A stretch of DNA of 64,000 nucleotides from Brachyhypopomus gauderio (taxonomy: Eukaryota; Chordata; Actinopteri; Gymnotiformes; Hypopomidae), in the NCBI RefSeq assembly GCF_052324685.1, contig NC_135226.1, positions 15,022,887 through 15,086,886 on the forward strand, written 5' to 3'. Below, one piece after another: positions 7,934 through 41,296 of this stretch (position 1 is its first letter; each line of letters opens with the position of its first letter). Below the pieces are notes generated by a model that was given only the letters and a program-made list of their open reading frames with translations, was not told the origin of the DNA and searched no databases. The position numbers were made by a program, and so were the translations under genes.

Positions 7934-9036
7934 TCAGCAAGCGTTGGCATTAAAAACCTCTCCATTAAAGCAAGCATTGCATCTTTCAGGAGTACATTGA
8001 TAAAGAAAAATTTCTTTGTTTACTTTTGCAAAGTTTGTACGGCGGTTATCAGCACTCTCGCTGCCAAAAATCTTACTGAAAACAAAAGCTTTTAGATTTC
8101 GGCTGTTGAACATCTTGAGGGCTTTGAGAATGTTATACGGACTCTGTTCATTTAAACATGTATTTAGACAGGGGGAGTTGTAGGTGTAGAAAATGACACA
8201 GCCATTGCTGTTCTTATTCAGGAGGTTCTGCATAGGCGAGGCTTGATTTGCTGAATTTAGCAGCCGTGACTCAGAGTGGGCGTTACTCTTTGGCAATGCC
8301 CCAATCATTGTGTTGCTTTGATAAATGTTTCTTTCATTTAAGACCTTTTTGACATTTTCTGGGTCATTGCCTGCAAGGAAGTCCTGACCTGGAATAAAAC
8401 CTGCAGCACACTGATCAGCTGGAATATTGAGGGCCACTGCATACTGAACATCAACACCAGGACTAAACCTGTAATGAACAAAACAATGAAAGGCATGATA
8501 ATTCATGTAATGACACTGTGAAATTGATTTTAATGTTTAAGGAGCTACTGCAGAATAATGTTATCTATATTTTCTTGCTTTTGTATAATAATTTACAATG
8601 CTCCACTTTTTTTGCATTATTTATATTAGACATTGTTTCGCTTACTTGTTCTGAATGTACTTGATTATCCGAGCCAGAGTGTTCTGGTCCACATTTTGAG
8701 TTTCAGTTCCACTAAAAACAACGCAGAGCAGGAAGCAACCTCTCAGAACTCCACCGAACACCTGCAGTGAAACCACAATAACTTCATAAGTCAAATTTCA
8801 TGAACACCGGCCTAACTGAGTGTTTGTGCTCCATGTCACTAAACATTGTACATTTGGCCAGCTTGGGGCTCTGAGGTGTTTATTAATGCTGTGCAGGTAG
8901 TAGTTCTCTCAATGATACAGGTGTATCATACATCAGAAGAGAAGAAATGGATGAGATCTTGTAGTAATCTAGGAACTACAACTACTTGTAGATACATATG
9001 TCCAGTAAATATTTATAGGCAGAAATAACTTACCAT
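7934..9036 (-). CDS. Secreted AID/APOBEC-like deaminase, paralogue A (three exons)
   Basis: Exon 1 ends exactly at its ATG (9034-9036, followed by donor GTAAGT). Exon 2 is 8646-8761 and exon 3 is 7934-8468, ending in TGA. The phases agree and give 217 residues. Residues 1 to about 20 form a signal peptide (Arg8, then core CFLLCVVF), so secretion is expected. The body carries HSE (104-106) and SPC with Cys140 and Cys144, the zinc-ligand and catalytic-Glu layout of the cytidine deaminase fold. A C-terminal Cys group follows at 198, 203, 206 and 217. A signal peptide plus this motif set fits the SNAD group of secreted AID/APOBEC-like deaminases known from fish. Their target is thought to be foreign nucleic acid, which is inference here. 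AATAAA lies at 7845-7850. It is the first of four same-strand paralogues. Another deaminase-fold family is the main alternative. Confidence 0.75.
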
Positions 9037-9168
9037 GGTTTTTCGTTGGACACTGCAGAGCAAATCGGGATGAGAAAGCAGAATTGAGACTCTTTATGTC
9101 TCGGTAAGGAGTGATGAGCAGGAGGATCTGGTGCAGATTTATACTGATCATAACCCCGCCTCCTTAAA
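9037..9168 (-). promoter_or_regulatory. TATA promoter and 5' UTR of deaminase A
   Basis: Upstream of the ATG on the minus strand there is AGTATAAATC (9136-9145), about 100 bp before the ATG, with a GGCGGGGTTATGATC element just upstream of it. The same block is repeated before genes B, C and D. Transcription probably starts about 25-30 bp downstream of the TATA box. Confidence 0.7.
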
Positions 9169-10260
9169 AAAAAAATTAAAAGCACTAGCCAGTCAGTGTT
9201 ATTATGAATTCAGTGCCAGTTCCACTTGCAATATGTCAACAAAATAATTCTCGAAACGATTATTATCGGGTGGCCTATAACATACAGTATGTACTTACCA
9301 AAATCTAAACAGAGGACATGACTTCTACAATGCTTGCTTAGTGATTTAAGAAAGGTTTCAAGAAGTCACAACCAGCTACAGTTATGTAATAAATATGTAG
9401 TAGTGTAGTAAATACTGCTAGTATGTACAATAATATATTCATCTTTACCCTAATTAATTTATTAGCATAAATGTTCTTACATCTTAGAATTTGGAACAGG
9501 CAGGAAACAGACACAGCCTCAGTATTAAGATATTGAAGTGTACACGTCTTTGTGGTTCTCATTAATTGAATTCAGAAAGAATGCATTATAAGGGTGATTT
9601 CAAATTCCTGTTATAATATTAGAGCATATCTGATTGCTCCCAGCCCAAACCAAGAACCTGCAACCTCATTAAAGTGAATGTTTTAGTTTTGAGGTCTTTC
9701 TAAGTGGCGTAACATGCTAAATTTGCGTGACACCCCTTGAGATCCCCCAAGTGATGGTGTCACATGCATTGCTGTTTTCCTGTGTGGTAAACCTGTGAAA
9801 AACGTTCATGAAAAAGCATTTGTGTGGTGTCATTTTGTATGTACAAGAATTCATCTGCTTTCAAAGGCAGCCCTATTTTACAAAGCATAATTCTATTTAT
9901 TTAATGTTCCCTCACAACACATACAATACCATTATGTCAAATGTGTCAAATGTCAAATGTCAAAGTGTTTAAGATAGAACCACCCAACCTTGAGTTCTAT
10001 TGTCATCTTCACAATAAACGGTTACACTGAACAATGAAATTCCTACTCTGCATTCCTTCTATGGCTAAGAAAGAGTAAATGTAAACACAAATATGAAAAA
10101 TCAACAAGAAACAATAAAAGGATCAATATAAAAAATAATTGAACATTAGTGTACATGAGATTGGCTGTGTTCAGCCTGTGCAGTAAAGGACTGTTCAGAT
10201 TCACTTTGTCTTGGTTCAGTCAGTCAACTTCCTGCTGTTCTGAGCTGAAGAAGAAACAAA
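9169..10260. other. Upstream flank shared by array units
   Basis: No gene is supported. The sequence is shared, with small indels, with about 23,800-25,150 and 34,555-35,710, so it is part of the duplicated unit upstream of each of genes A to C. Confidence 0.7.
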
Positions 10261-10261
10261 C

Positions 10262-10331
<70 letters not shown>
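10262..10331. repeat. (CA)n microsatellite
   Basis: About 34 CA units. Shorter homologous tracts lie at 25,151-25,182 and 35,712-35,748 in the other units, so the repeat length has changed since duplication. Confidence 0.95.
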
Positions 10332-11249: not shown

Positions 11250-12534
11250 AGGCAACTGTGCTAAGTAATTACAGACCCATCTCAAATCTACCATTTATTG
11301 GGAAAATAATTGAGAAAATAGCCTTCAAGTAACTCTGCAAGTGGCTGTCTAGACAAATTTCAGTCAGGTTTTTGACTGGCTCACAGTACTGAAACTGCTC
11401 TAATTAAGGTAATTAATGACATTCGTCTGAACACGGATTCAGGGAAGCTGTTCTAGTACTGCTTGACAGCCTTTGATACTGTAGTAGACCATCACATTGT
11501 TATAGATAGACTAGAGAAGTGGGTTGGTCTCTCAGGAACAGTTCTAAAATGGTTCAGTTCTTAATTGCAAGGCAGGAATTATTTTGTTGAAACTGAAAAT
11601 AAGACTCCTGAAAGAATGCCAGTGACTTCCACAGTGGTGTTCCACAGTGTTCGATACTTGGGCCACTCCTATTTAACTTATAGATGCTTCCACTTGGACA
11701 GTTTTAGCAGTCACATGAAATCAGTAACTAAGTTGACATTTTTTCATCTTAAGAATATCAATAAGATCAGAGATTTCTTGACAAAAGCAGATCTTGAGAA
11801 ACTTATTCAGGCTTTTGTTTCTAGCAGGGTTGATTACTGTAATGTCCTCCTAATAGGACTTCCAAAAAAGACAATTAAGCAGCTACAGCTGATTCAAAAT
11901 GCAGCTGCTGTTCTCACTAGGAGCAAAAAAAGTGATCATATCACCCCCATTCTTACGTCCATACAGTGGTTACCAGTACAATACAGGATAGACTTCAAGG
12001 TGTTATTACTGGTCTATAAATCACTAAATGGTGTAGGACCAGTGTATCTATCTGACATGATGCTGAGCTATGAGCCAGGCAGAAATCTTAGGTCACTAGG
12101 AACTAATCAGTTAGTCCTGCCAAAGGTAAGAACTAGGCAAGGAGAGGCAGCATTTAGATATTACGCTGTTTCTAAACGCAATCCAAATAACACAAGTAAA
12201 CATGCATGGCAACAAACACGGAGAACTCACAGGGCAACGGGAAGAACACTAGCCTATTTTAATAATTTTATTTATCTTTTACTTATTCCTATTTTCTTAT
12301 TTATTTTCTCTGTTTCCATTTTTATTGCCTTTTATTTTAATCTTTTAATCTTTAGATTGTAATCATTTTCATTTCTATTTGATTTCCTTTAAAATCTTGT
12401 TAAAATTCTTATGTATTATGGGCAACACCTTGCCAAGGTGATAGACCTCGTAATAATCTTCTTTCTTTGCTTGTGTAAAGCACTTTGAATTGCCAGTGTG
12501 TATGAAAGTTGCTACATAAATAAACTTGCCTTGC
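11250..12534 (+). pseudogene. Degraded L2/CR1-like LINE
   Basis: From 11,260 the translation shows the [12 protein letters not shown] start of a LINE reverse transcriptase with stops and deletions. A longer open stretch (about 11,700-12,175) encodes the typical C-terminal part: DYCN, QNAAA, HITPIL, WLPV and IDFK followed by LLLVYKSL. The catalytic YADD block is missing because sequence has been lost between about 11,640 and 11,700. The 3' end (12,280-12,534) has the tail with a hairpin CACCTTGCCAAGGTG and TACATAAATAAACTTGCC. This tail is reused at 26,308 and 36,173. Confidence 0.8.
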
Positions 12535-12674
12535 CACAACATAATGGGGAACAGGTGCTAGTAGTCTAGTGATGGGGACAGAAGGAGTGGTTTGGTGCTC
12601 GGGGGCGTGTTGTGAAGCAATGTGATCTGAGACACGCGCCCTCTGGCGGCGACCCGGCCTCCCCACCGTGACAA
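12535..12674 (-). mobile_element. Truncated LTR fragment
   Basis: It matches the distal part of the complete solo LTR at 36,465-36,708 and ends CACCGTGACA followed by AATATTC, the same junction as there. The proximal part is missing and is fused to the LINE tail. The identical fusion occurs at 26,531. Confidence 0.7.
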
Positions 12675-12689
12675 ATATTCAATAGTTAC

Positions 12690-13250
12690 CGAGTCTTCCC
12701 AGTCTTCCCTTAAACATCTATAGTTGGTAGAAAATTCTGCTGCCAGGTTTTCAACTGGAGTGCATAAGAGGGAGCACATTATTCCTATTCTGGCTTCCCT
12801 CCACTGGCTGCCCGTGTATTTTAGAATTCATTTTAAGATTCTTTTATTTGTTTTTAAATCTTTAGATGGACTCGCCCCACCTTACCTCTCTGAGCTCCTC
12901 CATCCACATGCTCCCACTCAGTGCCTCAGGTCAGCTGATCAGCTGCTCTTCAAGGTGTCGAGGTCAAAGCAGCGTTAGAGCAGCGGGCTTTCTCACCTGC
13001 TGCTCTTTAATTATAAAACTTTAAAAATTATTTAAAAATTATAAAACGACCTCTCAATTTATATTAGACAAGCCTCGTCACTGTCCATTTTTGAAACTCA
13101 TCTTAAAACCCATTTTTATTCCTTGGCTTTTAATCCAGCATAAGACCTGTTTTATTGGTGTTTACTGTCTCTATTTTTATTTATTTTATTACTGTTTTAA
13201 TGCAATACTGCAGTTTCCAACTGAGAGTTGATTTCTTACCTGTTCTCATT
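12690..13250 (+). pseudogene. LINE reverse transcriptase C-terminal fragment
   Basis: Encodes a short frame with HIIPILASLHWLPV and FKILLFVFKSLDG, typical of the C-terminal region of fish L2-like LINE ORFs. It is then broken by stops and an AT-rich insertion near 13,020. The same fragment is at 26,695-27,230, and a shorter piece is at 36,722-36,874. Confidence 0.75.
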
Positions 13251-14084
13251 ACGGAAAGTCCGGATGTACCTACTTATATGTAACACTGTGGTATAGAATA
13301 TTCATGCAGTGATCTTAATACTAGTCCCCTTATATGTGTCATAGAGTTTTCATGCACAGAACTAAAGTCTCTCCATTTAATTTGGTAAACATTAAATTAA
13401 AAAAATAATTATCTAATTTCCCCATAATGTGAAAACTGTGTTTCAAGACATCCTTGGCATAATTTTCATTGGGATTGTCAATGTATATATTAAAAATCAA
13501 CACCAATTATGGTAGACCTCAGTAGAAATAAAAAGACACCCAAACTCCAACTAAATGTTGGTGTGACGACTGGGGGGGCAGACAATCATGTAGACAGACA
13601 GTAACACTGACTGACTGGTGCATTTTGTGGTGAAAACTATAAAACCAATCACACCTCAATCATAGAGGTCACACATCAATTTTTTTTGGTGTGTTTGTTG
13701 GTGTCCAATAGTCCAATACTCTGTGGCACTATAAGGGGACTAGTATTCTAAAACCTAATGGGATAAAGCAATCCAAAAGCATTTAGGAATCAGATTACAT
13801 TACTTAAATATAGTAAGATTCTGGATTAGGTGACAAAAACATGTTTAATAGTTAAATCTGATAATTAATTAAATAAATTAATAGTAATCTGGGGTGACTA
13901 TGAGTAAGAACTTTGAGATTAGAACTGTGGGATTATAAAGGGTGCTCTGGTGATACAGGCTGTGTACATTTGAATTTATCATGTCATCATATTGACCGAT
14001 TAAGGTCAGACTGAAGGCAAAATAACAGGTACCCACCTCCCAACTCCAAACACAAAATCTAGTTACAAATAAGTAAAAACCATT
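13251..14084. other. Duplicated intergenic DNA, nothing recognised
   Basis: No gene or element end was identified. It is repeated almost without change at 27,251-28,084 (offset 14,000). Confidence 0.6.
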
Positions 14085-14333
14085 TGTCACGTTGTGGGGG
14101 GGCCCCTGCCGGTCGCCCCCGTTTACAGCGGCAGATGTCCTGTTTTTGGTCACGTTATGTTCGTCCCTCAGGTGGGCGGGACCCGTGATCCGTCTCACCT
14201 GAGGGTCGTTTGTTCGTCTATAAATGTCTTGTCTTTGTACCAGTTGACTGCTGGTTATTATTTCCTTCATTTGGAACAATGCACGGGTTTTTGGTTTGCA
14301 CACTTTCTATTAAACCATCCTCTTTCCCTGAGA
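14085..14333 (+). mobile_element. Truncated LTR (TGTCACG family)
   Basis: Starts TGTCACGTTG. It contains CTATAAATGTCTTGTC (TATA-like, 14,218 onward) and CTATTAAACCATCC near the end, as in the fuller copies at 36,875-37,137 and in the interrupted one at 50,133-52,989. It stops at CCCTGAGAC, short of the expected terminal CA. Confidence 0.7.
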
Positions 14334-16404
14334 CCATCTGTTGAGTGACATCACAGCACCATCTGTTGGGCGACCTGTAAACAGAACTAAAGTAGCAAGA
14401 AAAAGCACAGACATTCTCAAAACGGCAACAGCCGTAACACACAGAGTTTATAATAAATTTTCATTTTCAATTTTTTATATACTGGGATGATGTATTGTAA
14501 GATTGTTAGGTTTTCACACCTCATACAAGACTGCTCAGTTTCTTGTCAATATGACAAAAGATTTAATAGATTAATAACTTCAACTTCAACATTTTTTATA
14601 TACCCCTTGAAAACAACTACAGTTGACCCAAAGTGCTGCACAGAGAATATGCTAATAAAACATACAAACAGTAGGAAAAGTAGAATACAACAGTACACCA
14701 GCAATATCAATACAGTACTCAATGAGTACAGTATTGCCTGTGGACTGTTCTGTAGGACTGTAAATATAAAGTATGTTTCAAGTATTTGGGAAATGTATTC
14801 CTACTTTGTATTCCTACACAGTATTTACAGTATGTTACTATTTGTATTGCAGAACTGAAAGATTACCAACACTAGGTGGACGGAAACGTCTTTGGTCTCC
14901 TGAACAGGAAACTGAAATCCTGAACATGGTCCTAGAAAATAATGCCATAACATTACGGCAAATGCAAAGAAAAATAATAGAAAACAATGAGATATTTCAG
15001 AATATTGATAGGGTAGCTTATCAACGCTGGACCGTGTCTTGCGCAGAAATAATCTGAGGATGAAGCAGGTCTACAGGGTGCCTTTTTAACCCAATTCAGA
15101 AAGAGTCAATATAACTACGTGCAAGTAAGCCCTATACAATCTCACAACTGATGTATACACTCAACACTATATAAATTATACATAGTTCAGTATTGTAATC
15201 ATAATGATTGTGCTTCACAATAGTGACTCCTCCATGTCTATTTCTGATACTGTCATGTGTGTTTCAGAGAATCCTTGAGCAGTGGAGCACCAATTCATCT
15301 TCATTGATGAGGTTGGATTCAACCTCACAAAAAGACGAAGGAGGGGAAGGAATATCATCGGCCAGCATGCCATTGTTGAAGTCCCTGGCCAGCGCGGAGG
15401 GAACATCACTATGTGTGCAGCGATTACCCACCACGGCGTCATCCATCACCATGCTACCCTTGGCCCATACAACACTGCCCATCTAATCACATTCCTGGAC
15501 ACCCTACACAACACACTCATTCCACCAGATCAGATAGACGGTCCAGAGCAGCTCAGGTACGTTGTCATTTGGGACAATGTAAGTTTCCACCGGGCTGCTC
15601 TGGTTCTTAACTGGTTCACTGCCCACCCACACTTTTCAGTTGTTTATCTCCCTCCATATTCTCCATTCCTCAATCCTATTGAGGATTTTTTTCTGCCTGG
15701 AGATGGAAAGTGTATGAGCTACATTCACAAACACGTATACCCCTTCACCAAGCTATGGAAGACGCATGTGGAGATATAGCAGTTGATGCTTTTCATGGCT
15801 GGATTCGCCATGCTAGTCGATATTTCCCCCGCTGCTTGGCCAGAGAAAACATTGCTTGTGATGTGGATGAGGTGCTGTGGCCAGACCGAAACAGAAGAGA
15901 GGATGCAACATAGTTTTTTAAATGTAACTGTATACAGTAAATTCTTCTGTTGTTTTGTATGTAGACCACTGTATGTGCAACTTTGTGTTGGGTGGGATGT
16001 ACACTGTGTACATTGCTTTTGTGGGAAAAAATAAAATATATTTGTTACTGTGTGTATGTGTGTTCTGAGTATAAAAACACTATTCTAAAATATTTTACAA
16101 CACACTTATGTATTTCCTGTCTGTAGTAAGTGTAACACTGAACAAAAAAAAGCCTAAGTCATTATGATGAATGGAGAAGAAGTGTTTTCCATTCATCATA
16201 GTGTTTTACATTGAGCACATCAGTGTTCAACTGGTTCTTATAAATGTCTATTCATATGATGGTTTGTGTGTGTTATCTGTGTCATCAAGAGAACTGAGGG
16301 GTTTTGCCCAATGTGTGTGTGTTTTTTTGATTTGTGTGTAGAGTTCTAAGAGTATGAGGCATGCTTTCAGACAATGTGTGTAAACAATTGAGAAAAACTG
16401 TAAT
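14334..16404 (+). mobile_element. Tc1/mariner-like (DDE) transposon, copy 1
   Basis: The right end reads, on the minus strand, TACAGTTTTTCTCAATTG, which matches the end at 44,584 of a reverse copy. The left terminus could not be placed, because a truncated LTR adjoins it. The transposase region is listed separately. An exact-looking copy lies at 28,334-30,404. Confidence 0.75.
14850..15912 (+). pseudogene. Broken Tc1/mariner-like transposase, copy 1
   Basis: An N-terminal helix-turn-helix-type segment (RKRLWSPEQETEI...) follows an acceptor near 14,851. It is frameshifted near 15,027 and stops. A probable intron (15,128-15,267) precedes the catalytic part, which contains FIDEVGFN (first Asp), IWDNVSFHR (second Asp) and FLNPIEDF (Glu). 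I count 35 residues between the second Asp and the Glu. A seven-T run just after this Glu shifts the frame; the reverse copy at 45.8 kb has eight Ts there and reads on in frame. The C-terminal part continues to a stop at about 15,912 in another frame. The transposase is therefore inactive. Confidence 0.85.
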
Positions 16405-16419
16405 ACGGCGGTACCTGAG

Positions 16420-16645
16420 CAAGAGGACATTAAGAACTACAGAACAATTTCCAATCTTTCTATTTTTAGTAAATTGTTTGAATGTGTTGCTGTAGTCTAG
16501 TTGAAAGAACATCTATGTTCTAATAATCTTTCTGAGCTGTTCTAGTCTGCGTTTGGAGTTAACCACAATACTCAATCTACCTTATAAATGACTTATTGTT
16601 TGAGTGAACTCTGGACTGTTGAATATTTGTGCTCTCCTGGATCTC
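16420..16645 (+). pseudogene. Short LINE RT fragment
   Basis: Translation with interruptions gives NYRTISNL, FSKLFE, KEHLCSNN and SAFG, matching the NYRPIS...FQSGF region of LINE reverse transcriptases. The same piece is at 30,420-30,633. Confidence 0.6.
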
Positions 16646-17113
16646 CACATGTCTCTAATTTTCTCCCTTCTCTCATAACGCAGCAGAGAAAACGTATATA
16701 TCAGTGCATGTCTTTCTTCTCATCTGTGAGGTGACAAGCAGGAAAGTGAGATGTGAGCATTCAAGGAAGGTTGCATCCATTAACAGGATCCAAAACACAG
16801 AACACGTTGTTGCTCCCCTCCTCCGCTCCAGAGCCCGCGTGACGGACCTTCCATGTGGCCCGCGTTGTGATTTCCTTCTGTCAGCGGGTGCCATGAGCAC
16901 TCTGTTCTCTTGTTCCTCCTCATTTGGCCACGCCTCCTTATTGGGGAATAGGAAGATGGTGGGGAATAGGAAGATTATTATTATGGTGGGGAATAGGATT
17001 ATTGTTTCCTCTTATTGCTTTCACCTGTGTCTAGTTAACCCCATCAACGCCTAATGTATAAGTGTTTACATGTCAGCTGTTTTGACCCAGCGTTTGCTGT
17101 GTTTGTTGGTGCT

Positions 17114-19115
17114 CATGTGTCACAGTTTTAATGTGAGGGCTGAGAATGTTTGGTATTGTCCAGCTGTGGAATATCTGAGGGCAAAGATGCTGTGGCTACA
17201 TGTAACTGATTCTCCAGGTGGGTATCTGTTAATCTTGAACGAAGTCGGTTTTTTGCATGTGACAGCTTTGAGAAGAATTGTTCACAGCGGTATGTGGTTC
17301 CGAACAGTGAGGCCATTTTAAGTGCATGTTTCCTTAAATTTGGAAATTCACAAGCACTTATGTTCTGTTTGTAGAATTCTAGCAGGTCCATGTTGCTGTG
17401 CCTGGCCTTTAGCTGACAGTTATTCTGAAGTTCAATTATTTCTAGCTGCATGCATTCTGGTACATCAGCCACATTTACATTGAATGGTGTTGCAAAAATG
17501 TTAAGATCTTGTTCTTTTGCTTTCACATCTTGAAATCACTGAGCAAATGCTTCTAGCAAGTAGGTACATTCATTTGCATATTCTTTTGTCCTTTCTGGCA
17601 CAGGATTGTGATTCTGAAGTGTAGGGAAATGCCCAACATTGCCCCTTGCAAGTTGCACTTGCCACAATTTTAATTTGGCTTCAAATGACTTCATATGAAA
17701 AAGAAGTGAGACTAGGAGCTGATTAGGCCCTTGCAGTTTAACATTGAGCTCTGACAAATAGCTTGTGATGTCCACCATGAAGGCCAAATCACACGTCATT
17801 GAGTTTTTCATTACATTTCCCTTTTGTTTCCATGAAACTTTTAACAGCATCTCGGAGTTCATAAAATCGCTTGCGCATGTTAGCCCTGCTAAGCCATCGC
17901 ACCTCACAGTAGTAAACCAAATCTCTGTAGTCTTTTTCTAGGCTTTTCAAAAATTCCTTGAACTGTCGATTATTTAGCCCTCTACTTTTAATGAAGTTAA
18001 CGCAGGAAACAACAGTTGCCATTACATCTTTTATACACAGTGACTGTGAGCACAGATTTTCTTGGTGAATAATACAGTGACATGTAAATAAACTGCTGGG
18101 ATCTACACCAACACGTGCCATCTCTTTTTTAATGAGTGCCACCAATCCTTTATGTGTCCCCACCATAGCTGGTGCACCATCAGTTGTCAGTCCACATAAT
18201 TTGTTGAGTGATAAACCATAGGACTGCATTGCTATCATTAGCTTCTCAAAATGTCCTCACCTTTGGTTGTATCATGCATGCCCACCAACGAAAGCAAATC
18301 CTCTCTTGTGTTAAAACCCACCATAATTCCACGTACAAAAATTGCCGTTATGTCTGTTGTCTCGTCTAAAGCCAATGAGTAGAACTCAAAATCCTTGACA
18401 GAATCTTTCAGAGATTTCTCAATATCCTGTGCCATATTGCCAATATGGTCCGACGAGAAAGGCTGACGTTCTGGAACAGTTTCAGCTTTTCTGGAGCGAG
18501 CACCTGAGCAGCAGCGACCATACATTCCTTCACAAACTCTCCTTCAGAATATGGCCTCAGCCTCTTTGCTATCAGTTCACGTAACTCGCCTCAGTCACAC
18601 TGTCCAGCTCCTTTTTGGGTCGTGTATAAGACGCTTGCTGTGTAAGCAAATTATTTTTAAGCGCCTTTATTTTTTCTGCTCGTACTGCAGTGTAGTATAA
18701 CTTGCGTGTTTGGTGGTATGATGTCTTTCAATATTGCTTTTCTTGAGAACAGCGAGGGCTTCTCTACAAATTAAGCATACTGGCTTTCCTTTCACTTCAA
18801 CGAAAAAATATTCTGTCGTCCATTTTTCTTGAAAGGCACGATATTCATCATCAACTTTCCTCCGCTTCGCCATTTTTCCAACTCGGACAAGCTTACTTCA
18901 TGTCAGAAAGATGCATCTAATCGGATGAACCTACAATCATGTTTCTTGCAGCTAATTGGTTCGTTGAAAATATGCTAATTGAGTTGTAGAGTATCAAAAG
19001 TGACTGCATAAATCCTAAATATATATTTAATAAAATATAGAAAATACCCGACGGGCCATATATGGCTGAGTGGGGGGTCGTATACGGCCCGCGGGCCGGA
19101 GGTTCCCCACCCCTG
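17114..19115 (-). pseudogene. hAT (Charlie-like) transposon with broken transposase, copy 1
   Basis: The right end (19,115) reads inward on the minus strand as CAGGGGTGGGGAACCTCC, a hAT terminus. The left terminus is missing. In order on the minus strand there is a BED-type zinc-finger segment (18,873-18,667; CLIC...HHTTKH), then LALDETTDIT (18,525-18,238), GLTTDGAPAMVG and CEVRWLS (18,238-17,789), and the C-terminal dimerisation region (17,526-17,128; FFSKLSHAKNRLRSRLTD). Adjacent pieces lie in different frames or are separated by stops, so no full transposase can be made. The 8-bp target duplication cannot be verified. The second copy is at 31,102-33,085. Confidence 0.85.
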
Positions 19116-19351
19116 GTGTACACGATAGCATTTAGTTCATAGCACAACCACTGAGACAGTGACCATGACCAGTTAGTTTCTGGGAATATGATTACCCAAA
19201 GTCCTTAGACAAACAGACACACACACAAAGCTTATGTTTACAACTACAATAATCTTTATGCGTTTATTTACTGATCTAGCTTGAGGATGTAATTATTCAG
19301 AGTACTTTGACTTTCTGAGATACATATTACATAATGTGGTTCACATAGGTT

Positions 19352-22300
19352 TCAGCAAACGGCATTAAAAACCTCTCCATTAAAGCAAGCATTGCATCTT
19401 TCAGGAGTACATTGATAAAGAAAAATTTCTTTGTTTACTTTTGCAAAGTTTGTACGGCGGTTATCACGACTCTCGCTGCCAAAAATCTTACTGAAAACAA
19501 AAGCTTTTCGATTTCGGCTGTTGAACATCTTGAGGGCTTTGAGAATGTTATACGGACTCTGTTCATTTAAACAGGTATTTAGACAGGGGGAGTTGTAGGT
19601 GTAGAAAATGACACAGCCATTGCTGTTCTTATTCAGGAGGTTCTGCATAGGCGAGGCTTGATTTGCTGAATTTAGCAGCCGTGACTCAGAGTGGGCGTTA
19701 CTCTTTGGCAATGCCCCAATCATTGTGTTGCTTTGATAAATGTTTCTTTCATTTAAGACCTTTTTGACATTTACTGGGTCATTGCCTGCAAGGAAGTCCT
19801 GACCTGGAATAAAACCTGCAGCACACTGATCAGCTGGAATATTGAGGGCCACTGCATACTGAACATCAACACCAGGACTAAACCTGTAATGAACAAAACA
19901 ATGAAAGGCATGATAATTCATGTAATGACACTGAGAAATTGATTTTAATGTTGAAGGAGCTACTGCAGAACAATGTTATCTATATTTTCTTGCTTTTGTA
20001 TAATAATTTACAATGCTCCACTTATTTTGCATTATTTATATTAGACATTGTTTCGCTTACTTGTTCTGAATGTACTTGATTATCCGAGCCAGAGTGTTCT
20101 GGTCCACATTTTGAGTTTCAGTTCCTCTAAAAACAACGCAGAGCAGGAAGCAACCTCTCAGAACTCTACCGAACACCTGCAGTGAAACCACAATAACTTT
20201 ATAAGTCAAATTTCATGAACACCGGCCTAACTGAGTGTTTGTGCTCCATGTCACTAAACATTGTACATTTGGCCAGCTTGTGGCTCTGAGGTGTTTATTA
20301 ATGCTGTGCAGGTAGTAGTTCTCTCAATGATACAGGTGTATCATACATCAGAAGAGAAGAAATGGATGAGATCTTGTAGTAATCTAGGAACTACAACTAC
20401 TTGTAGATACATATGTTCAGTAAATATTTATAGGTGTGACGCTCGGGGCTGGACGAAGGACGAGACACGAAATCCTTCTGGACGGACGTCACTTTAAGTT
20501 TATTCACATATATTGCGCAATAGCGCACAGTGAACAGAGATACACACACAGAAACGTGTAGACCAGGGGTACTCAAATAGAAATGATGACGGGCCACATT
20601 TTATTTTTTCAATCACTGACGGGGCCGGTTACGGGGGGGGGGGGGGGGGGGGTGGTGGTGTGAACGCATTTGAATGAATGAATGAATGTTCGATTTATAT
20701 AGCGCCTTTCCAAATTCCCAAGGTCGCTTTACAATTTAACACAGGTACAATTCACAGACAACCAATCACACACACACCGGTGAGAAGCGGCAGCCAATTG
20801 CGCACAGCGTACTCTCTACCGGGATCCACAGCCCCCTGGGGGACTGAATGGGGTGCAGGAAGGGGAGAGAGGACAGACCCTAGTGGCAGAGCACCATCCA
20901 CCACTGGACATACAAGCACACACACGCACGCACGCACACAGACACAGACACTACTTTTTATTGAACATAGAGACACAGACACACACTCAGGGAGAATTTT
21001 TGTTGACTGCCAATTTACCTAACCTCCATGTTTTTGGACTGTGGGAGGAAACCGGAGATCCCGGTGGAAACCCACGCAAACACGGGGAGAACATGGAAAC
21101 TCCACTCAGATAGGAACTAGAACCCAAGACCCCAGTGCTGAGAGGCAAACGTGCTAACCACCAAGCCACCGTGTTACCCATTTTGACGCATTTGGGCGTC
21201 TGCTACCTGTTTGTTGTTGCCATAAAGGCAATCCCCGGCATCATCTTGAGATCGCGGTGCGCGATTTCAAAATAAGAGCGGATAGCGCGATTTAAAAAAA
21301 AAGATTCCTAAAAAAAAAAAAAACACTTTTCAAAACAGCTCGCGGGCCAGAAATAGATAGCCCCGGCCCGCGGGCCGCTATTTGAGTATGGGGGGTGTAG
21401 ACTCTAGACAACGACGAGCACAGGACACTGCGCGAGCGCACATTAAATAGACAAACCACATTAACCCCATGTGATTACGAGACGATTCACAGGTGAGACG
21501 GATTATCACATGACATTGCCATCACCACGGAATATCCACAGACGCAGACGATGCACGTAGACTACGTAAACACACGCCCAAAAGGGAGGGGCCGGGGTCC
21601 TCAACGTGACAGACGCCCCCTCCAAGGGCACTACCCGTCCCGGGGTGCCAACAGGACCGAGTGCCCCGAACCCACGACGATGGGCGGATCCGACGCGCTC
21701 AGTCCTGCGTCTGGGAGGTGACTGCCCTTGGCGAAGCGTCCATCACGAATCGTCTAGCACACCCTCCCTGGGAAGACGGGGGAAAAGACGTTAAACACAT
21801 TAAACGGCACATTCACAAACACACACACAGGCACGTTTACACAAAGTGGCACAAGAGGGAAAAACGGGTTAGGTACACAAAGGGGGAGACTGACAAACAC
21901 AGGAACACAAACATGTAACATAGGCGCCAGGCTTCGCGCCAGGAGAAGAGCGAGTAGGGGAGAGTGCTCCGGTGCTGCTGGCGCTGTGTTGGGCAATCCC
22001 CCTCCTGCCTTCGCTGCGAACTCTCCGCCGGGTGCAGCGTGGCTGGCGGACGTGCCGGGAGCAGCGCGGCGGGCGGACGTGCCGGGAGCAGCGCGGCGGG
22101 CGGACGTGCCGGGAGCAGCGCGGCGGGCGGACGTGCGAGGTGCAGCGCGGCTGTAGGACGTGCCAGGTGCAGCGTGACTGGCGGATGTACCCGGCGCAGC
22201 GCGAGGAAGCTCCTCCTCGTAGTCCATCAGCTCCTCCTCGCCCTCCAGGACCCCTTCCATGGACTTAGCCGGACTCTCACCCCGGGAATAGTCCATGGGG

Positions 22301-23663
22301 CTGGCCCCGGAAGGACTGGAAGACGCGGTCTCTCCAGGAGTCCTCCTCCTTTTGACGGTTTTCACGGAGGAGGGAAGGCTCTCCTCCTCGTCCTCCGTGT
22401 AGGAGTCGCTCTCGGGTGTTCCCGAGCCCACAGACGGGGAATAGTCCTCTGCTCCGTACTCCACTGTGGACCTGTCGTCCTCCGACGGAGGGTAATGGTC
22501 CCGCTCCTCCTCCTGACCCTTGGGAGAGAGACCCACAGGCGGAGGGAGGTAGTCTTCCTCCTCTGACTCCTCCTCCTCTTCGCCGTAGTCTATGGTGGTG
22601 TCGGTGTAGACGGAGGGAGGGTACTCCTCTTCCTCCTCCCCCTCCCCAACATAGTCCACGGTGGGAGCGGAGTAGATGGATGGAGGGTAATCCTCCTCCT
22701 CCTCTGACTCCTCCTCGGAGTCCCCCTCCCCGAATTCGCTCACTGGGGTGGACTCCGTAGCACCGAAGACGCAGGAGTCCACCCTCAGAGGCGAGAGGGC
22801 GCGTGCTGGATGGGGGCGTCGCTGGCGCTCACGCCAAATCCGCACCACCCCCTCACGGAGCTCCTTGGCCAACTCGGGGTCTCGCGTACTCCGTGCTGCG
22901 GCCAGCTGGAACGCGCAGACGGGATCCTGCTCCAGCTGCTCCTGCGTCGGGGGGTCCTCTTCCTCTACAAGCTCGGCCTCTGGTGGCGATGCCTGGTAGA
23001 ACTCCGGGACGCTCACTCTTATGGGCGAGCCCTCCCGGGAAGGTGCGGGGTGCCGCTCTCGCCACACTCGGACCGCAGTCCGGTAGTACTCCTCCTTCAG
23101 CTCGGGAATAGTGGTCTCCCGAGCCGCGCAGAGCAGGTAGGAGCACTCCGGGTCCTCCATGAGCTGCGTCCGAGTCGGCGGAGCTTCGTGGCGTGGGGGA
23201 GAAGACGAAGAGCGGCGATGCCGCTTACTGGGCTTCTTGCCCTTCTTCGGCTTCCCCTTGTAGCCTGGCATTCTGGGTTGGTGTCTCAAACGGCTCGTCG
23301 TTCTGTGCCGCTCGGGGCTGGACGAAGGACGAGACACGAAATCCTTCTGGACGGACGTCACTTTAAGTTTATTCACATATATTGCGCAATAGCGCACGGA
23401 GAACAGAGATACACACACAGAAACGTGTAGACTCTAGACAACGACGAGCACAGGACACTGCGCGAGCGCACATTAAATAGACAAACCACATTAACCCCAT
23501 GTGATTACGAGACGATTCACAGGTGAGACGGATTATCACATGACATTGCCATCACCACGGAATATCCACAGACGCAGACGATGCACGTAGACTACGTAAA
23601 CACACGCCCAAAAGGGAGGGGCCGGGGTCCTCAACGTGACAATAGGCAGAAATAACTTACCAT
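19352..23663 (-). CDS. Secreted AID/APOBEC-like deaminase, paralogue B (intron 1 carries an LTR element)
   Basis: Exon 1 ends at its ATG (23,661-23,663, followed by donor GTAAG). Exon 2 is 20,061-20,176 and exon 3 is 19,352-19,883. Phases agree and predict 216 residues. The signal peptide, the HSE motif, SPC-x3-C and the C-terminal Cys group are all intact, and the protein differs from paralogue A at only a few positions (for example DPVNV for DPENV, and an ending NAVC). A 3,207-bp LTR retrotransposon lies in intron 1, its end only 15-20 bp from the 5' splice donor, in the same orientation as the gene. Coding and splice sites are untouched, but LTR polyadenylation or promoter signals could interfere. 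AATAAA lies at 19,263-19,268. Confidence 0.72.
20564..21394. mobile_element. hAT MITE inside the 3' LTR
   Basis: Ends carry CTCAAATAG in inverted orientation (left CAGGGGTACTCAAATAG; right, reverse strand, CCCCATACTCAAATAG). It is flanked by the 8-bp duplication GTGTAGAC (20,556-20,563 and 21,395-21,402). It includes a 20-G run (20,633-20,652) and is itself interrupted by a SINE-like insert. A relative is at 56,930. Confidence 0.85.
20672..21184 (-). mobile_element. tRNA-derived SINE-like retroposon, nested
   Basis: On the minus strand it begins near CACGGTGGCTTGGTGGTTAG (A-box-like) and GGTTCTAGTTCC-type B-box sequence, and ends in an (ATTC)n tail at 20,672-20,690. Flanking near-identical GAACGCATTT and GACGCATTT (20,662-20,671 and 21,185-21,193) look like its target duplication. 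Related copies are at 47,174 and 62,018. Confidence 0.7.
21754..23271 (-). CDS. Single ORF of the LTR retrotransposon, unknown function
   Basis: The first suitable ATG (23,269-23,271) lies about 30 bp inside the 5' LTR and gives 505 residues. Visible layout: a basic N-terminus (about 1-30, Lys/Arg/Ser-rich); two copies of a module of about 55 residues ending VWRER...SP(I/L)RV; a long acidic Glu/Ser/Tyr/Pro stretch with repeated YPPS; a run of nine-residue units of the type AAPGTSARR; and a hydrophobic Val/Pro/Phe-rich C-terminal tail. No retroviral gag zinc knuckle or pol motif is seen. It occupies the gag position, so a gag-like particle role is possible, but I do not recognise it. A frame on the opposite strand is a shadow of its repeats. 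Confidence 0.6.
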   Translation of the reverse strand: MPGYKGKPKKGKKPSKRHRRSSSSPPRHEAPPTRTQLMEDPECSYLLCAARETTIPELKEEYYRTAVRVWRERHPAPSREGSPIRVSVPEFYQASPPEAELVEEEDPPTQEQLEQDPVCAFQLAAARSTRDPELAKELREGVVRIWRERQRRPHPARALSPLRVDSCVFGATESTPVSEFGEGDSEEESEEEEDYPPSIYSAPTVDYVGEGEEEEEYPPSVYTDTTIDYGEEEEESEEEDYLPPPVGLSPKGQEEERDHYPPSEDDRSTVEYGAEDYSPSVGSGTPESDSYTEDEEESLPSSVKTVKRRRTPGETASSSPSGASPMDYSRGESPAKSMEGVLEGEEELMDYEEELPRAAPGTSASHAAPGTSYSRAAPRTSARRAAPGTSARRAAPGTSARRAAPGTSASHAAPGGEFAAKAGGGLPNTAPAAPEHSPLLALLLARSLAPMLHVCVPVFVSLPLCVPNPFFPLVPLCVNVPVCVFVNVPFNVFNVFSPVFPGRVC

Positions 23664-23800
23664 GGTTTTTCGTTGGACACTGCAGAGCAAATCGGGATGA
23701 GAAAGCAGAACTGAGAGTCTTTATGTCTCAGTAAGGAGTGATGAGCAGGAGGATCTGGTGCAGATTTATACTGATCATAACCCCGCCTCCTTAAAAAAAA
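23664..23800 (-). promoter_or_regulatory. TATA promoter and 5' UTR of deaminase B
   Basis: AGTATAAATC lies at 23,763-23,772 on the minus strand, about 100 bp before the ATG, in the same block as for genes A, C and D. It sits upstream of the intronic LTR element, so the native promoter is preserved. Confidence 0.68.
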
Positions 23801-26307: not shown

Positions 26308-26530
26308 TTTTATTTTATCTTCTTTTATCTTAATTATTTTATCTTTTATTTTTATATTGTAATCATTATCATTTCTATTTGATTTCCTTTAAAATCTTGT
26401 TTAAATTTTTATGTATTATGGGCAACACCTTGCCAAGGTGATAGACCTCGGTTCGTAATAATCTTCTTTCTTGTCTTGTGTAAAGCACTTAGAATTGCCA
26501 GTGTGTATGAAAGTTGCTACATAAATAAAC
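26308..26530 (+). pseudogene. LINE 3' tail
   Basis: Matches the 3' end of the LINE at 12,280-12,534, including the CACCTTGCCAAGGTG hairpin and TAAATAAACTTGCC. The body of the LINE is absent here. It marks the junction between repeated units. Confidence 0.75.
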
Positions 26531-28084: not shown

Positions 28085-28333
28085 TGTCACGTTGTGGGGG
28101 GGGCCCTGCCGGTCGCCCCCGTTTACAGCGGCAGATGTCCTGTTTTTGGTCACGTTATGTTCGTCCCTCAGGTGGGCGGGACCCGTGATCCGTCTCACCT
28201 GAGGGTCGTTTGTTCGTCTATAAATGTCTTGTCTTTGTACCAGTTGACTGCTGGTTATTATTTCCTTCATTTGGAACAATGCACGGGTTTTTGGTTTGCA
28301 CACTTTCTATTAAACCATCCTCTTTCCCTGAGA
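28085..28333 (+). mobile_element. Truncated LTR, second copy
   Basis: Copy of 14,085-14,333 with a one-base difference near the start of the G-rich run. Confidence 0.7.
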
Positions 28334-30404: not shown

Positions 30405-30419
30405 ACGGCGGTACCTGAG

Positions 30420-30633
30420 CAAGAGGACATTAAGAACTACAGAACAATTTCCAATCTTTCCATTCTTAGTAAATTGTTTGAATGTGTTGTGAAAGAGCAT
30501 CTATGTTCTAATAATCTTTCTGAGCTGTTCTAGTCTGCGTTTGGAGTTAACCACAATACTCAATCTACCTTATAAATGACTTATTGTTTGAGTGAACTCT
30601 GGACTGTTGAATATTTGTGCTCTCCTGGATCTC
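30420..30633 (+). pseudogene. Short LINE RT fragment, second copy
   Basis: Copy of 16,420-16,645. A 12-bp difference near 30,490 (extra GCTGTAGTCTAG-like sequence in the first copy) changes the offset from 14,000 to 13,988. Confidence 0.6.
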
Positions 30634-31101
30634 CACATGTCTCTAATTTTCTCCCTTCTCTCATAACGCAGCAGAGAAAACGTATATATCAGTGCATGTC
30701 TTTCTTCTCATCTGTGAGGTGACAAGCAGGAAAGTGAGATGTGAGCATTCAAGGAAGGTTGCATCCATTAACAGGATCCAAAACACAGAACACGTTGTTG
30801 CTCCCCTCCTCCGCTCCAGAGCCCGCGTGACGGACCTTCCATGTGGCCCGCGTTGTGATTTCCTTCTGTCAGCGGGTGCCATGAGCACTCTGTTCTCTTG
30901 TTCCTCCTCATTTGGCCATGCCCCCTTATTGGGGAATAGGAAGATGGTGGGGGATAGGAAGATTATTATTATGGTGGGGAATAGGATTATTGTTTCCTCC
31001 TATTGCTTTCACCTGTGTCTAGTTAACCCCATCAACGCCTAATGTATAAGTGTTTACATGTCAGCTGTTTTGACCCAGCATTTGCTGTGTTTGTTGGTGC
31101 T

Positions 31102-33085
31102 CATGTGTCACAGTTTTAATGTGAGGGCTGAGAATGTTTGGTATTGTCCAGCTGTGGAATATCTGAGGGCAAATATGCTGTGGCTACATGTAACTGATTC
31201 TCCAGGTGGGTATCTGTTAATCTTGAACGAAGTCGGTTTTTTGCATGTGACAGCTTTGAGAAGAATTGTTCACAGCGGTATGTGGTTCCGAACAGTGAGG
31301 CCATTTTAAGTGCATGTTTCCTTAAATTTGGAAATTCACAAGCACTTATGTTCTGTTTGTAGAATTCTAGCAGGTCCATGTTGCTGTGCCTGGCCTTTAG
31401 CTGACAGTTATTCTGAAGTTCAATTATTTCTAGCTGCATGCATTCTGGTACATCAGCCACATTTACATTGAATGGTGTTGCAAAAATGTTAAGATCTTGT
31501 TCTTTTGCTTTCACATCTTGAAATCACTGAGCAAATGCTTCTAGCAAGTAGGTACATTCATTTGCATATTCTTTTGTCCTTTCTGGCACAGGATTGTGAT
31601 TCTGAAGTGTAGGGAAATGCCCAACATTGCCCCTTGCAAGTTGCACTTGCCACAATTTTAATTTGGCTTCAAATGACTTCATATGAGAAAGAAGTGAGAC
31701 TAGGAGCTGATTAGGCCCTTGCAGTTTAACATTGAGCTCTGACAAATAGCTTGTGATGTCCACCATGAAGGCCAAATCACACGTCATTGAGTTTTTCATT
31801 ACATTTCCCTTTTGTTTCCATGAAACTTTTAACAGCATCTCGGAGTTCATAAAATCGCTTGAGCATGTTAGCCCTGCTAAGCCATCGCACCTCACAGTAG
31901 TAAACCAAATCTCCGTAGTCTTTTTCCAGGCTTTTCAAAAATTCCTTGAACTTTCGATTATTTAGCCCTCTACTTTTAATGAAGTTAACGCAGGAAACAA
32001 CAGTTGCCATTACATCTTTCATACACAGTGACTGTGAGCACAGATTTTCTTGGTGAATAATACAGTGACATGTAAATAAACTGCTGGGATCTACACCCAC
32101 ACGTGCCATCTCTTTTTTAATTAGTGCCACCAATCCTTTATGTGTCCCCACCATAGCTGGTGCACCATCAGTTGTCAGTCCACATAATTTGTTGAGTGCA
32201 TTGCTATCATTAGCTTCTCAAAATGTCCTCACCTTTGGTTGTATCATGCATGCCCACCAACGAAAGCAAATCCTCTCTTGTGTTAAAATCCACCATAATT
32301 CCACGTACAAAAATTGCCGTTATGTCTGTTGTCTCGTCTAAAGCCAATGAGTAGAACTCAAAATCCTTGACAGAATCTTTCAGAGATTTCTCAATATCCT
32401 GTGCCATATTGCCAATACGGTCCGACGAGAAAGGCTGACGTTCTGGAACAGTTTCAGCTTTTCTGGAGCGAGCACCTGAGCAGCAGCGACCATACATTCC
32501 TTCACAAACTCTCCTTCAGAATATGGCCTCAGCCTCTTTGCTATCAGTTCACGTAACTCGCCTCAGTCACACTATCCAGCTCCTTTTTGGGTCGTGTATA
32601 AGACGCTTGCTGTGTAAGCAAATTTTTTTTAAGCGCCTTTATTTTCTCTGCTCGTACTGCAGTGTAGTATAACTTGCGTGTTTGGTGGTATGATGTCTTT
32701 CAATATTGCTTTTCTTGAGAACAGCGAGGGCTTCTCTACAAATTAAGCATACTGGCTTTCCTTTCACTTCAACGAAAAAATATTCTGTCGTCCATTTTTC
32801 TTGAAAGGCACGATATTCATCATCAACTTTCCTCCGCTTCGCCATTTTTCCAACTCGGACAAGCTTACTTGTCAGAAAAGATGCATCTAATCGGATGAAC
32901 CTACAATCATGTTTCTTGCAGCTAATTGGTTCGTTGAAAATATGCTAATTGAGTTGTAGAGTATCAAAAGTGACTGCATAAATCCTAAATATATATTTAA
33001 TAAAATATAGAAAATACCCGACGGGCCATATATGGCTGAGTGGGGGGTCGTATACGGCCCGCGGGCCGGAGGTTCCCCACCCCTG
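31102..33085 (-). pseudogene. hAT (Charlie-like) transposon with broken transposase, copy 2
   Basis: Same order and same breaks as the copy at 17,114-19,115: BED finger at 32,845-32,639, DETTD at 32,497-32,210, the RWLS region at 32,154-31,777, and the C-terminal dimerisation region at 31,514-31,116. A short deletion near 32,200 removes the start of the GLTTDGAPAM segment. Its right end CAGGGGTGGGG is intact. Confidence 0.85.
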
Positions 33086-33321
33086 GTGTACACGATAGCA
33101 TTTAGTTCATAGCACAACCACTGAGACAGTGACCATGACCAGTTAGTTTCTGGGAATATGATTACCCAAAGTCCTTAGACAAACAGACACACACACAATG
33201 CTTATGTTTACAACTACAATAATCTTTATGCGTTTATTTACTGATCTAGCTTGAGGATGTAATTATTCAGAGTACTTTGACTTTCTGAGATACATATTAC
33301 ATAATGTGGTTCACATAGGTT

Positions 33322-34421
33322 TCAGCAAACGGCATTAAAAACCTCTCCATTAAAGCAAGCATTGCATCTTTCAGGAGTACATTGATAAAGAAAAATTTCT
33401 TTGTTTACTTTTGCAAAGTTTGTACGGCGGTTATCACGACTCTCGCTGCCAAAAATCTTACTGAAAACAAAAGCTTTTCGATTTCGGCTGTTGAACATCT
33501 TGAGGGCTTTGAGAATGTTATACGGACTCTGTTCATTTAAACATGTATTTAGACAGGGGGAGTTGTAGGTGTAGAAAATGACACAGCCATTGCTGTTCTT
33601 ATTCAGGAGGTTCTGCATAGGCGAGGCTTGATTTGCTGAATTTAGCAGCCGTGACTCAGAGTGGGCGTTACTCTTTGGCAAAGCCCCAATCATTGTGTTG
33701 CTTTGATAAATGTTTCTTTCATTTAAGACCTTTTTAACATTTACTGGGTCATTGCCTTCAAGGAAGTCCTGACCTGGAATAAAACCTGCAGCACACTGAT
33801 CAGCTGGAATATTGAGGGCCACTGCATACTGAACATCAACACCAGGGCTAAACCTGTAATGAACAAAACAATGAAAGGCATGATAATTCATGTAATGACA
33901 CTGAGAAATTGATTTTAATGTTGAAGGAGCTACTGCAGAATAATGTTATCTATATTTTCTTGCTTTTGTATAATAATTTACAATGCTCCACTTATTTTGC
34001 ATTATTTATATTAGACATTGTTTCGCTTACTTGTTCTGAATGTACTTGATTATCCGAGCCAGAGTGTTCTGGTCCACATTTTGAGTTTCAGTTCCTCTAA
34101 AAACAACGCAGAGCAGGAAGCAACCTCTCAGAACTCCACCGAACACCTGCAGTGAAACCACAATAACTTCATAAGTCAAATTTCATGAACACCGGCCTAA
34201 CTGAGTGTTTGTGCTCCATGTCACTAAACATTGTACATTTGGCCAGCTTGGGGCTCTGAGGTGTTTATTAATGCTGTGCAGGTAGTAGTTCTCTCAATGA
34301 TACAGGTGTATCATACATCAGAAGAGAAGAAATGGATGAGAGCTTGTAGTAATCTAGGAACTACAACTACTTGTAGATACATATGTCCAGTAAATATTTA
34401 TAGGCAGAAATAACTTACCAT
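33322..34421 (-). CDS. Secreted AID/APOBEC-like deaminase, paralogue C (three exons)
   Basis: Exon 1 ends at ATG (34,419-34,421), exon 2 is 34,031-34,146 and exon 3 is 33,322-33,853. Predicted 216 residues, in phase throughout. The signal peptide (core CFLLCVVF), HSE, SPC-x3-C and the C-terminal Cys group are all present. It is nearly identical to paralogue B but has an uninterrupted intron 1 of about 270 bp, which shows the ancestral gene organisation. One visible difference is FLEGND in place of FLAGND. AATAAA lies at 33,233-33,238. Function is inferred from the family, as for paralogue A. Confidence 0.75.
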
Positions 34422-34553
34422 GATTTTTCGTTGGACACTGCAGAGCAAATCGGGATGAGAAAGCAGAACTGAGACTCTTTATGTCTCGGTAAGGAGTGAT
34501 GAGCAGGAGGATCTGGTGCAGATTTATACTGATCATAACCCCGCCTCCTTAAA
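34422..34553 (-). promoter_or_regulatory. TATA promoter and 5' UTR of deaminase C
   Basis: AGTATAAATC at 34,521-34,530 on the minus strand. From the donor to the upstream GGCGGGG motif the sequence matches that of gene D base for base over about 130 bp. Confidence 0.7.
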
Positions 34554-39420: not shown

Positions 39421-39900
39421 TTGGATTGGCCAGTAAGGAAGTAACACTGGATTCAGCTGTTTTCTGTGCCTCTACATTATTGACAGCACGAGATAGTGTA
39501 TCTTTTCCAGGTGTGTACAGGAAGCCACTACCGAAATGCGGGAGACTCCCGCAGCTTCAGGGAGACTTGGGATGTCTGCGAGGAACACTGAGATGAGGAG
39601 AGACGAGCCTTTCCAGAGATCCATCCTGGGCCAGCCACCTCCTGCCTAACCAGATATGATGGAGGACCTACCCACCGCCCTGACAAACCAGTTTTTCCAA
39701 AAGTGTGAGATGTTTTGTCTGTTTTTTGTGTGGCATTGGCTGCTGTGTGTTTCGAAAAAAGAGACAGTTTCAGAAATTGAGTCTTAGCGGCTGCAAAAAA
39801 CTGTAAGCTGTTCATGCATCCACAAGGTATTTTACTGCCCTCTAGTGGAAAGTCCAAAACATTTAATTCCTCAAACACACACACACACACACACAGTTGA
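39421..39900. other. LINE 3' UTR-like remnant and (CA)n tract
   Basis: A segment around 39,588-39,660 resembles the 3' UTR of the L2 at 52,390-52,450 (GATGAGGAGAGAC..., CCACCTCCTGCCTAACC). A (CA)n tract lies at 39,875-39,895. No gene. Confidence 0.5.
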
Positions 39901-40011
39901 CTCACTCTGTAATGCTGCATTACGTATTTATTTAATGATCTTAAGCTTTAGGAGATCTTCATAAAGAGTGCTGTGTCTTTTTATAGCCCAATAACAAAAT
40001 TCTCATAGGTT

Positions 40012-41296
40012 TCAGCAATCATCACTAAAAATATTCCCATTGAAGCAAGCATTGCATCCTGTAGCATCACAGCGATAAAGATTAATCTTATTGTTTACTT
40101 TGGAAAATAATTGATGACGCTGTTCTCTGTTTTGTGTGTCATTGGGATAAATTCTATTGAAAACAAAAGCATGTGGACCATGATGATTTCGGAATATGTT
40201 GAGGTCATTGAGAATATTACGTGGTTTTGCAGCACATAAGCAGGTTTTGAGGCAGGGTGAGTTAAAGGTGTAGAAAACCACACAGCCGTTTTTACGCTGG
40301 TTCAGGAGGTTTTGCATAGGAGAGACACCCGTCTCTCCGGGCCTCAGCAGCCGGAATTCAGAGTGATTTTTACCCTTTGGCTTTGCCCCAATCATTGTGT
40401 TGCTTTGATAAATGTTTCTTTCTTTTAAGATCTTTGTGACATTTTCTGGGTCATTATCTGCAAGGAATTTCTGACCTAGCTTAACTTTAGTACACTGAAC
40501 AGCTGGAATATTGATGGCCACTGCATACTGAACATTCCTAGCAGGACTAAACCTGTAATGAACAAAAGAGTTTAATCGACATATTATAATTCACAAAAAA
40601 TACTATGAGAATTTTATTATTATTCTGTATAATTCATGTGGTGCCTGTTTTACATCATTTGTATTTGACAATGTTTTGCTTACTTTTCCTCAATGTAATT
40701 GATAATGTGAGACAAGGTCTTCTGGTCTACATTTTGGGTGGTCTGGTCCACATTTTGGGTATTTTGGTCCACATTTTGGATGTTATGGTCCACATTTTGA
40801 GCCTCAGTTCCAATCACGTATGAGAAGAGAACACAGAGCAGGAAGCAACCTCTCAGAACTCCGCGGAACACCTGCAGTGACACCACCATACCAAAGACAT
40901 GAAGAGCACCAGCACTGACTATAACTGCAACCCAGTGCAAACTGAGGTCATACATTACCATACTAGTAATGCTGGGTGTGCCATGGTTCTTGGGAAACCT
41001 GACATTTTCTTGAAAATGTATGCTAACAGGTCTAACATCAAAATTCAAAATTGGTTGACCCAATTTGACTGCACAGTGTTGTGGAAGAGTTCAGTTCTAA
41101 AGTATAAAGTTCTGGATATACTACAGGGTTTGATGTATTTGATAATGCTATACAGTCAGGTCACAACTTGTAGGTCTCATATATACTTCAGAGGACGCAA
41201 AAATGGATGTGATTTTGTACCAATCTAGGAACTTGTTCAACTACAGTAACATAAAGAGACAGGTGTAGATATTTTTAGATTGAAATAACTTACCAT
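40012..41296 (-). CDS. Secreted AID/APOBEC-like deaminase, diverged paralogue D
   Basis: Exon 1 ends at ATG (41,294-41,296), exon 2 is 40,684-40,871 and exon 3 is 40,012-40,552. Phases agree and give 243 residues. The signal peptide (GVLRGCFLLCVLFS) is close to that of A to C. After it, exon 2 is 72 bp longer because a 21-bp unit encoding QNVDQxT has been amplified to four copies where A to C have one. The deaminase body is clearly diverged yet keeps HSE (about 127-129), SPC-x3-C (about 164 and 168) and the C-terminal Cys group (YRC...GCNACFN). Likely zinc-dependent secreted deaminase, as for the others. AATAAA lies at 39,927-39,932. The downstream flank is unrelated to units A to C. Confidence 0.72.

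Follow-up and report, generated by a model that had tools for sequence, protein, structure and literature searches.

The SNAD family of AID/APOBEC-like deaminases owes its name to Krishnan et al. (2018), as cited in PMC11004436. According to the accessible sections of PMC11004436, SNAD1 is present across fish, and the family has been lost from birds, marsupials, and mammals. Zebrafish chromosome 15 carries three SNAD1 genes with three exons in about 44 kb, a gene structure that is usual, not universal (PMC11004436, Table 1), and carp has 13 SNAD1 genes (PMC11004436). Zebrafish SNAD1 expression is highest in the liver, kidney, and spleen, and the carp protein is found in blood and seminal plasma (PMC11004436); developmental expression of SNAD1 in carp (PMC13402138) and the presence of SNAD1 in nurse shark plasma (PMC9207270) have also been reported. 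The idea that these proteins act as mutagenic immune effectors has been put forward as a hypothesis (PMC11004436; PMC9207270), with fast-evolving loops taken as a sign of pathogen-driven selection (PMC9207270). The available portions of PMC11004436 and, again, PMC8201067 state that SNAD activity is unknown, and a search of the open literature, with subscription papers outside its scope, returned neither a SNAD activity test nor a report of a homogenised promoter block.

A 64,000-nucleotide stretch of contig NC_135226.1 of the gymnotiform electric knifefish Brachyhypopomus gauderio (hereafter, the window) contains an array of new SNAD1 genes, members of an already described fish family in an informative arrangement. 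Four minus-strand genes, g1 to g4, span positions 7934–41296. All were rebuilt as three-exon models with GT-AG introns, and none of the four has a broken reading frame or splice site; the products (217, 216, 216, and 243 aa, respectively) agree in length with the 216 to 243 residues given by the first-pass annotation, which had listed four same-strand, three-exon genes. In every gene, exon 1 contributes only the ATG to the coding sequence, exon 2 supplies a hydrophobic leader, and the entire conserved domain comes from exon 3:

7934..8468, minus strand: g1 exon 3, deaminase domain and C-terminal Cys cluster (gene model, Pfam, predicted fold)
8646..8761, minus strand: g1 exon 2, leader peptide and first helix region (gene model, hydropathy)
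9034..9036, minus strand: g1 exon 1 coding part, ATG (gene model)
19352..19883, minus strand: g2 exon 3, deaminase domain (gene model, Pfam)
20061..20176, minus strand: g2 exon 2 (gene model)
23661..23663, minus strand: g2 exon 1 coding part, ATG (gene model)
33322..33853, minus strand: g3 exon 3, deaminase domain (gene model, Pfam)
34031..34146, minus strand: g3 exon 2 (gene model)
34419..34421, minus strand: g3 exon 1 coding part, ATG (gene model)
40012..40552, minus strand: g4 exon 3, deaminase domain (gene model, Pfam)
40684..40871, minus strand: g4 exon 2, leader peptide and short QNVDQ-type repeat (gene model)
41294..41296, minus strand: g4 exon 1 coding part, ATG (gene model)

Three copies are very similar and one is diverged, as had been noted: g1–g3 proteins are 97–99% identical, and g4 is 61–62% identical to these. 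Elsewhere in the window, a 614-aa open frame at 50206–52050 (plus strand) contains a reverse transcriptase domain, RVT_1, of a LINE-like element, and an exon at 60266–60490 (plus strand) matches DUF4594 (Pfam, 96.9 bits); together with neighbouring frames, at about 59.3–63 kb, this exon resembles what we take to be a CCDC9-type gene.

With the SNAD1 genes described from common carp and from zebrafish chromosome 15, which mostly have three exons, the array shares a Pfam SNAD1 match, the three-exon structure, a putative leader, an HxE plus PC-x-C motif, and three C-terminal cysteines (features as given in the accessible part of PMC11004436). The array differs in having four genes, in another fish order (Gymnotiformes), and in its homogenised promoter block, of which the accessible part of PMC11004436 makes no mention for zebrafish or carp. 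Among closer relatives, Electrophorus voltai P0001 is 62% identical to g1 and groups with g1–g4 (support 99/98). At least five listed relatives from Metynnis and at least four from Acnodon lie on one contig each, as judged by gene tags; these serrasalmid and electric-eel relatives (P0001–P0005 and others) differ from the array in sequence and copy number.

Assignment of the array genes to SNAD1, based on sequence, is close to certain. All four proteins match the Pfam SNAD1 profile (PF18744) at 122.5–128.2 bits and SNAD2 (PF18745) at 87.5–94.5 bits, against a cut-off of 25 bits for each; SNAD2 scores lower in 4/4, by about 28–41 bits, which makes SNAD1 the better label, one that rests on the Pfam scores, the tree containing no labelled SNAD1 or SNAD2 references. 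Matches of g1 to NAD1, SNAD3, APOBEC_N, and SNAD4 across the HSE–SPC region are sub-threshold; APOBEC_N reaches 16.3–16.7 bits in g1–g3, under its cut-off of 25, and is not listed for g4. A classical intracellular AID/APOBEC identity was rejected given these APOBEC_N scores and a hydrophobic leader in 4/4 proteins.

The zinc motifs proposed earlier, HSE and SPC-x3-C, are found in all four proteins and conform to the SNAD1 zinc/catalytic signature, HxE plus PC-x2-4-C. In g1 the residues concerned are H104, E106, C140, and C144. A family alignment combined two window domains with 44 of the 65 database relatives. Its 46 members all have matches to both SNAD1 and SNAD2 (E up to 0.1), and 45 of them keep HxE and SPC-x3-C; in the sole exception, P0039, the zinc His is lost from a protein that is otherwise normal for the family. 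The expectation that most pipelines would leave such genes uncharacterised holds for names, most named relatives being "uncharacterized" or "hypothetical", and fails for precomputed Pfam labels, which include SNAD1 in 46/46 of the database relatives listed.

For the common signal peptide claimed at first pass, Kyte-Doolittle hydropathy, the only measure used, shows a hydrophobic N-terminal stretch in 4/4 proteins, with a peak of 2.45–2.75 vs. 1.15–1.52 in the rest of the protein; this leader and the extracellular relatives suggest secretion. Six non-zinc cysteines (domain C20, C90, C158, C163, C166, and C177) are present in 4/4 array proteins. The three C-terminal cysteines of SNAD1 are C198, C203, and C206 in g1, with equivalents in 4/4. 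Across the 46-row alignment, C20, C90, and C177 are invariant and C158, C163, and C166 are at least 90% conserved, a pattern expected for a secreted disulfide protein.

The g1 domain is predicted to adopt the deaminase fold (pLDDT 90.9, pTM 0.86), and together with the SNAD1 profile this model upholds the first-pass placement in a SNAD-type AID/APOBEC-like family. In the structural alignment called for at that stage, 50/50 rows listed are APOBEC3 or AID; these rows were picked out of the Foldseek top 1000 and are not an unbiased test. Sequence searches of solved structures returned only weak, unrelated chains, with a best E of 0.49 for the g1 query and 0.33 for the 46-row profile, and profile comparison with APOBEC2-like proteins gave a probability of only 4.4%. 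We know of no leader and no C-terminal Cys cluster in AID or APOBEC3. The array proteins share with AID/APOBEC3 the predicted core fold and zinc motif; AID/APOBEC3 are intracellular (PMC11004436).

A genome search located SNAD1 at no fewer than seven places: the window accounts for four, and contigs C4, C14, and C31 for one apiece. AID/APOBEC-like exons, named by reading of their sequences, are present on C1 and C21 (APOBEC2-like) and C13 (AID-like). SNAD3 gave no match, from which, with the search used, its absence does not follow. The C4 and C14 genes (L007, L011) have an apparent GC-AG first intron (ATG|GCAAG), array genes having GT-AG, and a long inverted repeat common to both lies immediately upstream of the C14 promoter (L011, about 730–810). 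The C31 protein (L012, 1501–2115) keeps HAE and SPC-x3-C, has a changed C-terminal Cys pattern, and contains a KVDNN repeat; a 205-aa stretch of this locus is identical to LOC143487829 of B. gauderio (P0063). Best identity to g1 among the 46 database relatives listed is at most 63%; the window proteins therefore seem to be absent from the searched database, in which the C31 protein is present.

The tree, in which 37 of 43 rows come from the 65 database relatives, unites g1–g3, g4, and two sequences from Electrophorus (support 99/98), adjoined by three serrasalmid sequences (96/92). Support is weak (80/55) for the branching order inside this gymnotiform group, which places g4 outside. C4 and C14 fall into a separate clade, and C31 forms a very long branch. 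A link to transferrin, prompted by the database name of Electrophorus P0004, was discarded: the 61 transferrin matches listed are on other contigs, none on C16.

The arms-race reading of the first-pass annotation stands only in part. Two gene pairs, g1/g4 and C4/C14, were tested against introns or other non-coding DNA; differences among g1–g3 are too few for inference of selection. With a dN/dS of 0.53–0.59 for g1–g3 vs. g4 and g1/g4 replacement divergence equal to intron divergence (117/509 vs. 81/373, p 0.68), g1/g4 evolution is relaxed or locally diversifying, with no gene-wide positive selection; synonymous divergence is higher (49/136). By contrast, C4/C14 replacement divergence exceeds most, not all, neutral yardsticks. 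By NG86, dN is 0.142 and dS is 0.088 (ratio 1.61). Replacement sites (69/534) exceed intron 2 (11/284, p 2e-5), pooled non-coding sites (51/799, p 5.7e-5; the pool leaves out the middle of intron 1), and the non-coding plus synonymous pool (p 9e-5), but not significantly synonymous sites alone (13/156, p 0.16). The final 150 bp of intron 1, whose alignment requires many gaps, exceed replacement sites (23/134), and when they replace the last 90 bp in the pool (65/846), p weakens to 0.002. In both pairs, strands and the catalytic helix are spared: core positions differ at 10/45 vs. 63/130 for the rest in g1/g4 (p 0.003) and at 2/45 vs. 51/130 in C4/C14 (p 3e-6). A spared core is also the expectation under ordinary purifying selection.

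Each gene begins within a 139-bp block comprising a GC box, a TATA-like box, the 5'UTR, the ATG, and a splice donor:

9022..9160, minus strand: g1 promoter/exon-1 block, 99% identical to the 139-bp query
23649..23787, minus strand: g2 promoter/exon-1 block, 98% identical to the 139-bp query
34407..34545, minus strand: g3 promoter/exon-1 block, 139/139 identical to the g4 block
41282..41420, minus strand: g4 promoter/exon-1 block, 139/139 identical to the g3 block

In a genome DNA search that ignores very common words, the block appeared at four places, all inside the window, and a dispersed repeat was therefore rejected. Downstream of the block, g3 and g4 are 80% identical over the remaining aligned sequence, and upstream they yield no credible alignment; in 2000 shuffles, the longest identical run is at most 59 vs. 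the 139 observed. Block identity can be explained by recent gene conversion or by strong constraint. Sharp block edges and one site common to g3 and g4 alone weakly favour conversion; promoter constraint, however, would likewise yield identity, and the count of such sites is just one.

The near-identical g1–g3 look like products of recent tandem duplication. The g2 unit at 12332–20434 is repeated as the g3 unit at 26334–34404 (8.1 kb, 98.8% identity), and the g2 and g3 proteins differ by two residues. Two further features bear on the history of the locus:

20435..23641, no strand assigned: LTR-like insertion in g2 intron 1, missing at the g1 site, with a 217-bp repeat and target duplication
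5641..5865, plus strand: inverted SNAD relic, degraded and interrupted in frame by a stop codon (best tblastn match a Prochilodus SNAD, E 6e-12)

The insertion (3207 bp) has TG...CA ends, a 5-bp target duplication, ATAGG, and identical 217-bp repeats (21395–21611 and 23425–23641), and lies about 20 bp from the intron 1 splice donor. A 559-aa open frame inside it (21754–23433, minus strand) has no Pfam match. The relic emerged from a tblastn search with 43 SNAD proteins: outside the four genes, six matches reached E 0.01 or better, and every one falls in 5635–6000; the reversed window, used as a control, gave 0 hits. The Prochilodus SNAD closest to the relic groups in the tree on the C4/C14 side, away from the array.

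These same features could indicate that some copies have lost function or were created by assembly error. A false duplication, with g2 and g3 as haplotypes of one gene, might produce 98.8% identity across 8.1 kb, the 3.2-kb element so close to the g2 splice donor may have damaged that gene, and the relic shows that decay has occurred nearby. Yet frames and splice sites are intact in all four genes, g1 and g4 are plainly distinct, and g1 shares the repeat unit with g2 and g3 at 92–98%; the tandem duplication is therefore real at the array locus, and the artefact reading is quite unlikely.

Two other readings accept the genes as genuine and concern what their products do. As secreted nucleic-acid binders, with catalysis secondary or lost, the proteins could shield or sequester their ligands and tune endosomal sensing; the clustering of differences outside the core in g1/g4 and C4/C14 would suit such a role, as would loss of the zinc His in P0039 (1/46 relatives), and a binding-only role is among the proposals for ADA2 (PMC12060026, in the part available). 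Retention of the zinc motif in 45/46 family sequences and 4/4 array genes, however, suggests that catalysis is under selection, leaving a binding role unlikely, if the least so of the alternatives weighed here. Zinc chemistry is common to the entire deaminase superfamily (PMC11004436, in the sections accessible), and the array proteins might instead deaminate free cytidine or a small molecule in plasma, like nucleotide-salvage cytidine deaminases. Against this, all 50 listed fold matches, albeit a biased selection from the Foldseek top 1000, are AID/APOBEC polynucleotide deaminases, and loops vary strongly between paralogues, contrary to expectation for a fixed small substrate; a salvage-like function is improbable.

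The preferred reading is that the array encodes SNAD1-type secreted AID/APOBEC-like deaminases, multiplied head-to-tail, that probably act on microbial or viral nucleic acid. Nucleic-acid deaminase activity itself is also probable, to judge by sequence and model, and an immune role is slightly favoured. In the mechanism envisaged, head-to-tail tandem duplication would multiply SNAD1-type genes, each transcribed from its own TATA-like promoter; the leader peptide would send each protein out of the cell, where disulfides would hold it together. One zinc ion would be bound via one His and two Cys, and the Glu of HSE would drive cytosine deamination in single-stranded DNA or RNA. The likeliest targets would be microbial or viral nucleic acids, either extracellular or endosomal after uptake.

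ADA2 is secreted, and its fold is unrelated to that of AID/APOBEC-like deaminases; an adenosine deaminase, it is only a functional analogue of the array proteins. ADA2 is a precedent for the endosomal route: the available part of PMC12060026 describes a lysosomal deaminase for which DNA deamination and DNA binding are both proposed, altering TLR9 signalling. A more speculative extension, to which we give little credence, treats the array as a module of one promoter and many enzymes: conversion would homogenise the block for joint switch-on, substrate-facing loops would diverge, and the secreted mixture would deaminate cytosines of extracellular or endosomal pathogen nucleic acid, damaging it and altering its reading by Toll-like receptors, as proposed for ADA2.

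The array offers matched natural variants, two genes whose products are two residues apart and one at 62% identity, under near-identical promoters, a convenient set for a first activity test. Editing of foreign DNA or RNA by secreted deaminases, if it occurs extracellularly, would take the AID/APOBEC mutator principle beyond the cytosol and the nucleus.
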